From NCBI GenBank assembly GCA_019637265.1, contig JAHBVY010000006.1:124001-188000 (forward strand): a stretch of DNA of 64,000 bases. The letters run 5' to 3'. The translations under genes were made by a program, and so were the position numbers. Source of the stretch: Polyangiaceae bacterium. GTDB lineage: Bacteria > Myxococcota_A > Polyangia > Polyangiales > Polyangiaceae. The notes below the pieces were generated by a model. It made no database searches. It was not told the origin of the DNA and worked only from the letters and a program-made list of their open reading frames with translations. Shown piece by piece: positions 13,469 through 16,452 of this stretch. The stretch's first letter is position 1. Every line of letters starts with the position of its first letter.

Positions 13469-14101
13469 TCACTCGCCCAGCGCGGCGCGCATCGACTTCT
13501 CGAGCGCTTCGGGCTGCTGCGCCGAGTAGAAGTAGGGGAAGCGCGGGTGAGGGCTCTTGAGCTCGGCGTTGAAGCTGCCGTCCTTCGAGAGGAAGAACAC
13601 GCGCGGCACGTAGCCACCCAGCTGCGAGAAGGGCGGCGCCTTGAGCCAGGCGTCGCCCGCGTCGGCGTCTTGACGCACCATGACAAAACGCTTCCCCAGC
13701 TCTTCGAAGCGCGGGGTGCGCATCATCTGATCGAGCTCGCGACAACGTGCGCACCACTCCGCGTACACCACTACGCAGAGCGGTTTTCCTGTCGCGCGGG
13801 CCTCCTTCAGGCCCTCCTCGTAGCCGAGCCAGCGCGCGCCCCCGCTGAACATCCCGCTGGGCGCGGCGGCTGGGGCGCCCGACGGGGCCTCGGCGCGGGG
13901 CGCGTCCGAGGTGGGGGCAGGGCGCGTCTCGGCAGAGTCGCAGCCGACCAGGAGCAGGAGGGCGGCCCCGGCTGCCCGAGCACCGGACGGACTGAGCAGC
14001 GCGCGGCGGAATAATCCACGTGGAAATACTGCTCCACCCTCCGCACGGCCCGCGAGCGACGCTGTGCGATCCTGGCGCAGCCCCTCATGACGGTGTCTCA
14101 T
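13469..14101 (-). CDS. Thioredoxin-fold lipoprotein
   Basis: 210-residue predicted periplasmic or outer-membrane lipoprotein. It has a long Arg-rich N-region, a hydrophobic segment ending LLLLVGC (lipid-attachment C54), a Pro/Ala/Ser linker, then a thioredoxin-like domain from about residue 88 with redox motif AEWCARC (C117, C120) and a cis-Pro region (GGYVPRVFFLSKDG). It resembles the thioredoxin_7/DsbD C-terminal-like group, which reduces or oxidises envelope cysteines. The ~35 residues before the hydrophobic segment are long for a lipoprotein signal, so the true start may lie further in. It sits downstream of the radical SAM gene with a 213-base spacer. Confidence 0.75.
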   Translation of the reverse strand: MRHRHEGLRQDRTASLAGRAEGGAVFPRGLFRRALLSPSGARAAGAALLLLVGCDSAETRPAPTSDAPRAEAPSGAPAAAPSGMFSGGARWLGYEEGLKEARATGKPLCVVVYAEWCARCRELDQMMRTPRFEELGKRFVMVRQDADAGDAWLKAPPFSQLGGYVPRVFFLSKDGSFNAELKSPHPRFPYFYSAQQPEALEKSMRAALGE

Positions 14102-14117: not shown

Positions 14118-14318
14118 TCACCGAGATCCTGCGTTCATTCCAGCCTCGGATAGCAGCAGCTCCGAGCTTCCTGGCGCGCCGCGGACGGAGCCTCTGGTGG
14201 CGGCGCCACGGTGCTCTGCGCCACGGTGCTCTGCGTCGCGGTGCCGTCCAACCCCCCCCAAAAAAACAGGGGTGCTGAGCTCTGTCGTAGCGGCGGCCGC
14301 GCCTGGCGGCGCCGTCAT
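14118..14318 (-). CDS. Candidate 66-residue ORF coupled to the radical SAM gene
   Basis: Small open frame whose ATG forms an ATGA overlap with the stop of the radical SAM gene, the same arrangement as other coupled genes here. It contains His-Arg pentads (HRDAE, HRGAE, HRGAA) encoded by a 15-bp tandem repeat, an Ala-rich start and a GSSELLLSEAG segment. Position, size and repeats would suit a precursor peptide for the upstream enzyme. Against this, the frame crosses a T/G-tract motif seen elsewhere in non-coding spacers, short frames are common in GC-rich DNA, and no family is recognised. Treat as hypothetical. Confidence 0.25.
   Translation of the reverse strand: MTAPPGAAAATTELSTPVFLGGVGRHRDAEHRGAEHRGAATRGSVRGAPGSSELLLSEAGMNAGSR
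14205..14249. repeat. 15-bp tandem repeat, 2 exact plus 1 degenerate copy
   Basis: GCCACGGTGCTCTGC at 14205-14219 and 14220-14234, followed by a diverged third copy 14235-14249 that runs into the T/G-tract motif. Confidence 0.8.
14248..14267 (-). repeat. T/G-tract intergenic motif, site A
   Basis: On the minus strand it reads T7 G8 TTGG followed by ACGGCACCG. It lies 48 bases after the stop of the radical SAM gene and shares the 15-mer GGTTGGACGGCACCG with 5615-5629 and 39279-39293. Confidence 0.6.
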
Positions 14319-15811
14319 GAGGCGGTGCCGGTTTGCAGGAAGTGTGAGCGCTCGCGCACCGTCGTCCAGCGCCGGAAGATCTCGATGGTGGTGGGGTCGT
14401 CCTCCGCCAGCTTGCTGAACAGGTAGTCCTGGATCCCCTTGTGGACCTGGCAAATCGCGTTCTCCCGCGTGCGGCCCTGGATGGACCCATGGGAGGTGTA
14501 GTTGTTCTCCGGCTTGATGCCGCAGTACGGGTTGTAAGTGCAGTTGACGCAGTCCGTCTGGGCGTCGAGGTTGCTCGCGACCAGCGCGGCGCGCACCGTC
14601 TCGTGAGTCATCAGCTCGCGGTACTTGGCGGTGTCCACGTGGCCGAGCAGGAAGGTGTCGTCCCCCATCTCGTGGAGCATGCGCCCCTCGTCGCTGATGA
14701 AGATGTTCCCGTCGTAGTTGTAGGCGATGCCGCCGACGCCGGCGCCCGAGGGGTTACGGATGTCGAGGAAGTTGGGGTCGTCCCCCGTGAGGATCTTGGT
14801 GAGGAAGATCGACGCGAAGCGCTCGAGCACCTGGGTGCCGCCCTTGTTCAGCTCGATGATGTAGTCCACCGCGGCGCGGTAGAACTCCTCGTACCGCCGG
14901 CGCTCGTACTCGATCACCTTGTGGGTCTTCTCCGCGAAGCCGAAGGGATCCACCGGGCGCAGGAAGATGGAGCGGCAGCCGAGCTCCACGTAGGTGTCGA
15001 CGATTTGCTTCGGCATGTCGAGCGCCGCGCGCGTCGTCGTGAGCAGCGCTTCCACATGGTAAAGCACTGGGTCCAGCCCGAGCTCGATGTAGCGCTCGTT
15101 GATGCGGCGGATCCAGGTGGAGGCCTGCTGGTAGGCGTTGCCGCTGGGGAGGACGCGCTGCTTGTTGTGGAGCTTCTCCGGGCCGTCGATGCTGGTGCAG
15201 ATCTGCACCTTGTGCTTGATGAGGTAGTCGAGCTTCTCGTCCGTCATCAGCGCCAAGTTGCTCACCATCGTGAACTCGAGCTCCTTGCCGTAGGCGCGGT
15301 TCTTCTCGATGGCGTACTCGATGATGTGCTTCACGATGGGGAAGTTCGCGAGCGGCTCCCCGCCTTGAAATTCGATGGTGATGCGCGGCGCCGTGCTCTG
15401 CAGCGAGAGGTCGACGGAGCGCTCGGCCGTCTCCCGGCTCATGTCCGTCTCCACCTGATCCATGTTGGCGCGGCTGGCGTGGCAGTAGACGCAGGTCTCG
15501 TTGCAGCGCAGCGTGACCACCATCATGTGCAAGATGGGGCCGTAGTTCAGGAAGCGGCGCCGGGTGAGCACCCGATCGCGGATCTTCGCGACGTCCACCT
15601 GGTCACGGATGAAGTTGCGAGCGGTGAGCCGCGCCTCGAGCTCCGGGCTGAGCTCCCCCTGGTACAGCCCCCGGAACTCCTCCTCGCTCACGAACGTCCA
15701 GTCCCCAAAGTAGCTGGTGAGGAGCACCTTCCCGGCGACCGGCCGAAACCGTAGCGGGACCAGCTTGCCGGGGCTCTTGGGCTTCGTGAGATCGTTCAAG
15801 CGCACATTCAT
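14315..15811 (-). CDS. Radical SAM/SPASM-type peptide maturase, HxsB-like
   Basis: 498-residue radical SAM protein. The [4Fe-4S] SAM cluster motif is C103-x3-C107-x2-C110 (LRCNETCVYC). The body has EFQGGEPLANF, the CTSIDGP segment, a FLRPVDPFGFA block and YNYDGNIFISDEGRMLHEMG, which closely match what I know of the HxsB maturase of His-Xaa-Ser systems. A C-terminal Cys set (CVNCTYNPYCG and a later ICQVH) would bind auxiliary clusters. HxsB modifies HxsA peptides with HxsC/HxsD, none of which is visible here. GAGGA four bases before ATG 15811 supports this start; the frame extends to 15838. It is flanked by pgpA-like and thioredoxin-like genes and may have a 66-codon partner overlapping its stop. 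Confidence 0.8.
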   Translation of the reverse strand: MNVRLNDLTKPKSPGKLVPLRFRPVAGKVLLTSYFGDWTFVSEEEFRGLYQGELSPELEARLTARNFIRDQVDVAKIRDRVLTRRRFLNYGPILHMMVVTLRCNETCVYCHASRANMDQVETDMSRETAERSVDLSLQSTAPRITIEFQGGEPLANFPIVKHIIEYAIEKNRAYGKELEFTMVSNLALMTDEKLDYLIKHKVQICTSIDGPEKLHNKQRVLPSGNAYQQASTWIRRINERYIELGLDPVLYHVEALLTTTRAALDMPKQIVDTYVELGCRSIFLRPVDPFGFAEKTHKVIEYERRRYEEFYRAAVDYIIELNKGGTQVLERFASIFLTKILTGDDPNFLDIRNPSGAGVGGIAYNYDGNIFISDEGRMLHEMGDDTFLLGHVDTAKYRELMTHETVRAALVASNLDAQTDCVNCTYNPYCGIKPENNYTSHGSIQGRTRENAICQVHKGIQDYLFSKLAEDDPTTIEIFRRWTTVRERSHFLQTGTAS

Positions 15812-15894
15812 AAAGTCCTCAGACCCGCTCTTTAGCATGCCGGGCGCGAGTTCGGGATGGGTGGACGCTCCGTGACGAGGGCCGCCCCGATCCG

Positions 15895-16344
15895 CTACGC
15901 GAGCCAGCGGGCGGCGAGCCCCGCCAGCACCCCGGCGACGACGTCGTCCGCCATGATGCCGACGCCCTCCGGCGAGAGGTCCTCCGCCGCGTGCACGGGC
16001 CCCGGCTTGAGGATGTCGAAGGCGCGAAACAGCACCCAGGCCATGGCCTGCGTCTTCAGCGAGCTCCGGCGCACCAGGCCCAGCGCGATCAGCACGCCCG
16101 CCACCTCGTCGATCACCACGCGCTGTGGATCCGTCTCACCGCGCCGCGTCGCCACGCGCTGAGCCGCCCACACCCCGAGCCCAGTGACGCCCACCGTCGC
16201 CGCAACGTGCAGCGGGAGCGGCAGCCGCCGGAGCAGCAGGTGGAGCGGCACCGCGCCTAGCGAGCCGACGGTGCCCGGCGCCTTGGGGGAGAGCCCACAG
16301 CCAAACCAGGTCGCGATGAGCTCCGCCGCGCGGTCGCTATCCAT
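15895..16344 (-). CDS. pgpA: Phosphatidylglycerophosphatase A-like protein
   Basis: 149-residue membrane protein of the PgpA/YutG family, which dephosphorylates phosphatidylglycerophosphate to phosphatidylglycerol. It has the N-terminal FGCGLSPKAPGTVGSL block, a central DEVAGVLIAL segment near residue 85 with acidic residues thought to be catalytic, and FDILKPGPVHAAE near 115. There are about three membrane helices. ATG 16344 is chosen over the upstream ATG because TAGGGT lies eight bases before it and the extra six residues are not conserved. It is separated from the radical SAM gene by 83 bases. Confidence 0.85.
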   Translation of the reverse strand: MDSDRAAELIATWFGCGLSPKAPGTVGSLGAVPLHLLLRRLPLPLHVAATVGVTGLGVWAAQRVATRRGETDPQRVVIDEVAGVLIALGLVRRSSLKTQAMAWVLFRAFDILKPGPVHAAEDLSPEGVGIMADDVVAGVLAGLAARWLA

Positions 16345-16352
16345 GAGGCGGC

Positions 16353-16358
16353 ACCCTA
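16353..16358 (-). promoter_or_regulatory. -10-like hexamer of pgpA
   Basis: TAGGGT on the minus strand, eight bases before ATG 16344; no Shine-Dalgarno sequence is present. Confidence 0.4.
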
Positions 16359-16452
16359 GCACGAACCATCAGGTCCACTGCTTGGCCTCCTGCTGAGAGC
16401 CCGTGCTGAGGTCATGGACGCCGCCGCGTGGCAGGCGCTATGGTCTCGCGCC

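Follow-up and report, generated by a model that had tools for sequence, protein, structure and literature searches.

The window analyzed here, a 64,000-nucleotide stretch of a Polyangiaceae-like (Myxococcota) genome, encodes on its minus strand a 498-residue radical SAM/SPASM maturase, HxsB (15811..14315; an alternative in-frame ATG is possible upstream at 15838). The assignment draws on a family match, a selection estimate, and orthologues in relatives. The protein scores 548.7 bits against the NCBIfam equivalog TIGR03978, for which the cut-off is 370, and covers positions 1–466 of the 466-position profile, i.e., its full length; the preliminary description of an HxsB-like maturase was therefore right, and the signatures it listed (LRCNETCVYC, EFQGGEPL, and YNYDGNIFISDE) are all found in this frame. 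Upstream lies pgpA (15895..16362, minus strand; Pfam PF04608, E 8e-41) and downstream a gene for a thioredoxin-like lipoprotein (13469..14101, minus strand; PF13899, E 3e-12). The pgpA gene neighbors hxsB in a congener (G001) and in genome G007 as well, and in G001 the thioredoxin-like gene directly follows hxsB. The classical cassette of the His-Xaa-Ser system consists of four genes, HxsA, HxsB, HxsC, and HxsD. No genes for HxsA, HxsC, or HxsD were seen around the hxsB locus in the window.

HxsB orthologues in relatives are 55–87% identical to the protein, the upper value being that of the congener. For the latter pair, we obtained a dN of 0.089, a dS of 0.864, and a dN/dS of about 0.10; judged by this comparison, HxsB is under strong purifying selection. 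In an alignment of 32 orthologues, the three cysteines C103, C107, and C110 of the CxxxCxxC motif, which sit in the radical SAM 4Fe-4S cluster motif CNETCVYC (residues 103–110; 15482..15505, minus strand), are nearly invariant, and the SPASM-type cysteines C421, C424, C430, and C454 (14450..14551, minus strand) are invariant. An AlphaFold2 model (pLDDT 86 overall) displays an N-terminal unit of three strands and three helices (residues 20–84; 15560..15754, minus strand), predicted to be RRE-like and presumably leader-binding. This assignment is suggested by the order of strands and helices and by the enzymes matched, the closest solved structures by sequence profile and fold being PDB entries 5wgg and 5why, a sactipeptide thioether maturase. 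As modeled, HxsB is a peptide-modifying maturase of RRE/radical SAM/SPASM architecture.

A frame of 66 codons (14318..14118, minus strand) opens within the hxsB stop codon (ATGA) and contains the pentads HRDAE-HRGAE-HRGAA, exactly as had been described. The same description had cautioned that this frame crosses repetitive DNA, and correctly so: the pentads stem from 2.8 tandem copies of a 15-bp unit (14203..14244), and the frame overlaps a C8A7 tract (14252..14266, plus strand), here preceded by GCGGTGCCGTCCAA, that occurs 26 times in the genome versus 0 times for a reversed control. With the local composition, an ATG opens at least 66 codons with a probability of about 0.24, and 413 of the 1046 ATGs within the window do so; the length of the frame is therefore not unusual. 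Its GC contents at the three codon positions are 0.74, 0.68, and 0.68, compared with 0.59, 0.39, and 0.95 for hxsB. In the congener, the frame is absent next to hxsB despite the 87% identity of HxsB; when the two genomes were compared with blastn, hxsB, pgpA, and the thioredoxin region aligned, but the stretch between hxsB and the thioredoxin domain did not. When 59 genomes were searched for the 66-residue product, the hits beyond the locus itself were weak and scattered (E 3e-4 or worse), and no HxsB locus was among those listed; the best weak match within its own genome sits on another C8A7 tract. We also compared stop-to-stop frames of at least 20 residues around hxsB with G001 and G007; among the best 25 matches per genome, no separate small gene was conserved, the matches being recognized genes and frames overlapping them. 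Because the frame is absent in the congener, has a GC profile like that of noncoding DNA, lacks a homologue at HxsB loci, and overlaps both the C8A7 tract and the tandem repeat, it is most likely, on sequence grounds, a chance ORF rather than a gene.

The C8A7 tracts display a strand polarity on contig C1 of this genome, where all 17 follow one pattern, with 7 in forward orientation up to 696 kb and 10 in reverse from 915 kb (17/17). The GC skew of this contig changes sign near 770 kb, being positive before that point and negative after it, as would be seen at a terminus. Looser C5A5 tracts on the same contig are found on mixed strands.

The genome contains one full-length HxsB, that of the window (contig C18), and its partners are encoded on two other contigs. 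HxsD is found on contig C12 (543483-543740; TIGR03976, 65.1 bits, cut-off 50), adjoined by an HxsD-like protein (NF038315, 70.9 bits, cut-off 41). A precursor of the HxsA4 family is encoded on contig C19 (32579-32875; NF038313, 113.7 bits, cut-off 55); the frame starts with GTG, and its 98-residue product contains the HGS motif 14 times and ends in Trp. DNA encoding (HGS)n occurs in this genome only at C19:32589-32710. In this genome as in G001 and G007, hxsA4 lies between hemL and glyS, as named from their translations. No HxsC exceeded the cut-off anywhere in the genome, the best scores being 88.9 of the required 267.9 bits for HxsC and 115.9 of 500 for HxsC4. For HxsD, neither a fold search with a structure model (E ≤ 0.001) nor a profile comparison with sequences of solved structure returned a match. 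The C12 locus further encodes a methyltransferase-domain protein, a radical SAM protein that resembles HxsC but stays below the cut-off, a lipoprotein with MopE motifs, and a ClpB-like ATPase. The Hxs genes are thus not gathered in one cassette but spread over three contigs, and HxsB is orphaned only locally. The reported absence of HxsA, HxsC, and HxsD holds at the locus; genome-wide, it does not extend to HxsD and HxsA4, and for HxsC there are only relatives below the cut-off.

In many relatives the genes form one tight cluster in the order HxsD, HxsD-like protein, HxsB, and an (HGS)nW precursor, HxsA4. A separate scan of named genomes recovered the same order, with the group falling in Polyangiaceae and other Myxococcota. 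We surveyed 59 genomes, setting presence calls by hand from search tables and counting HxsB as present at 47% identity or more and a precursor at five or more matches to the HGS pattern. HxsB of this type is accompanied by HxsD and HxsA4 in all 28 genomes that carry it (28/28; Fisher tests across the 59 genomes, with kinship ignored, give about 5e-16 for HxsD and about 8e-15 for HxsA4). The distinct repeat proteins end in Trp in 53 of 54 cases, and a leader motif around LPTFTKSARGML is common to the precursors of split and linked systems. In a tree of HxsB, which implies four changes of linkage overall, the protein of the window belongs to a clade of eight, the deepest branch of which has moderate support (84). 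No HxsD or HxsA4 was found in the available flanks of any member, although two members lie close to contig ends and have very short flanks on one side (1.1 kb in G014 and 0.15 kb for the second copy of G018). A search for repeat-rich small ORFs downstream of unlinked HxsB genes returned compositional noise only. Some genomes carry two HxsB copies, one linked and one unlinked in G018, G030, and G054, and both unlinked in G033.

The closest counterpart is the HxsA4/HxsB/HxsD/HxsD-like system of Myxococcota (NF038313, TIGR03978, TIGR03976, and NF038315), and for each of these four families the genome has a member scoring above the curated cut-off. Like its counterparts in linked relatives, the precursor combines HGS repeats with a final Trp; in contrast to those relatives, the genes occupy three contigs instead of one cluster, and hxsB stands alone between pgpA and the thioredoxin-like gene. 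The classical cassette shares the HxsB and HxsD families and a His-Xaa-Ser repeat substrate, but here no HxsC passes the cut-off and the genes are not co-located. In the relatives G020 and G041, cassette-like loci combine HxsB with a radical SAM protein, a small protein (c11), and a repeat protein in which the HxS units vary. Their HxsB is only 36–38% identical to that of the window, and the present precursor, a plain HGS repeat, lacks their C-terminal extension. The triceptide enzymes, which form three-residue cyclophanes (e.g., HaaB and MscB), are SPASM radical SAM maturases as well, and the i/i+2 motifs that they modify include His and Ser positions (PMC11002830), but they belong to other NCBIfam families, and a cyclophane product of HxsB would be proposed by analogy alone. 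The sactipeptide maturase 5wgg/5why, although the nearest solved structure, is about 21% identical to HxsB and makes Cys thioethers, whereas the HGS repeats contain no Cys apart from one at their boundary.

These observations offer an explanation that we consider probable: the gene in the window encodes the HxsB component of an HxsA4-type His-Xaa-Ser system whose genes are scattered across at least three loci, and this HxsB acts in trans on HxsA4. The data show the family memberships, the dispersal, the co-occurrence, and the selection; that HxsB acts in trans, binds the leader through its RRE, and modifies the HGS repeats is inferred. The lack of an HxsC at the cut-off speaks against it, as does the unlinked HxsB present besides the linked one in G018, G030, and G054. 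Since the extra copy of G018 falls in the clade of the window, the members of that clade could be paralogues that serve a different, unlinked substrate; maturation of HxsA4 might then fall to the C12 locus's own radical SAM protein, the HxsC-like one. We regard this as unlikely: genomes whose sole HxsB is unlinked all retain HxsD and HxsA4, none of the 59 genomes has HxsB of this type without both, split genomes preserve the leader motif of the precursor, and among the best 25 matches per genome no separate small gene beside this HxsB was conserved in G001 or G007. That the stand-alone HxsB enzymes of Polyangiaceae-like Myxococcota form a lineage recruited to a new substrate, distinct from HxsA4 and with its gene at another place, likewise seems unlikely.

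Still less can be said for a two-gene locus in which the pentad peptide is the substrate of HxsB, as first proposed. The ATGA overlap and the His-containing pentads in register are in keeping with it, but these His residues are spaced five residues apart and form no HxS triplets, and the frame's absence in the same genus, its weak and scattered matches, none of those listed lying at an HxsB locus, its codon-position GC unlike that of genes, and the dispersed intergenic DNA elements that it crosses leave this peptide-modification locus with a new precursor unsupported and make it very improbable. The preliminary description had named two outcomes that would speak against its proposal, and both are largely what we find: the frame is not conserved at the protein level beside HxsB genes in relatives, and HxsA4 and HxsD, with relatives of HxsC below the cut-off, are encoded elsewhere in the genome. 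That hxsB is a decaying leftover of a system since lost, as its position away from its partners might suggest, is hardly credible and was rejected on the dN/dS of about 0.10, which would fit only if selection had ceased very recently; the frame is also open, every cluster cysteine is present, and the partners exist in the genome.

In the dispersed HxsA4-type system, HxsB would act in trans on the precursor encoded on C19, its RRE-like N-terminal domain presumably binding the leader of HxsA4 in the region of LPTFTKSARGML; HxsD and the HxsD-like protein would be its partners. Radical chemistry derived from SAM would then modify the (HGS)n repeats. Because other radical SAM enzymes make i/i+2 cyclophanes, including His-Ala and Phe-Ser cross-links (reviewed in PMC11002830), a plausible guess for the product is a cross-link from His(i) to the Cβ of Ser(i+2), as in three-residue cyclophanes. 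This pathway would not involve the 66-codon frame.

The system is thus a known one with dispersed genes, and this locus holds no new precursor; HxsB, HxsA4, HxsD, and the HxsD-like protein are already curated families, and the sole new point is their arrangement. It indicates that a maturation pathway for a repeat peptide can spread over a genome while staying intact across several genera. Searches limited to the surroundings of the enzyme will therefore miss the substrate and may offer a chance ORF instead. The arrangement also singles out the HGS-repeat peptide as a candidate substrate that is testable and apparently undescribed, no paper on such repeats having been found in the literature searched.

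Several features of the C12 locus (L042) deserve mention. The HxsD cluster there includes a 314-residue radical SAM-like protein (L042:12777-13718) that aligns with the radical SAM model of Pfam only from its middle and from which CxxxCxxC is apparently missing. The lipoprotein beside HxsD (L042:10969-12747) carries MopE copper-binding motifs (PF11617), and proteins of its similarity cluster (c3) are found at the equivalent position in several relatives; HGS peptides may thus have some connection with metal. Finally, the called HxsD-like ORF (L042:9931-10332) begins with short tandem repeats of QCSDEA units, which probably represent sequence upstream of the real start.
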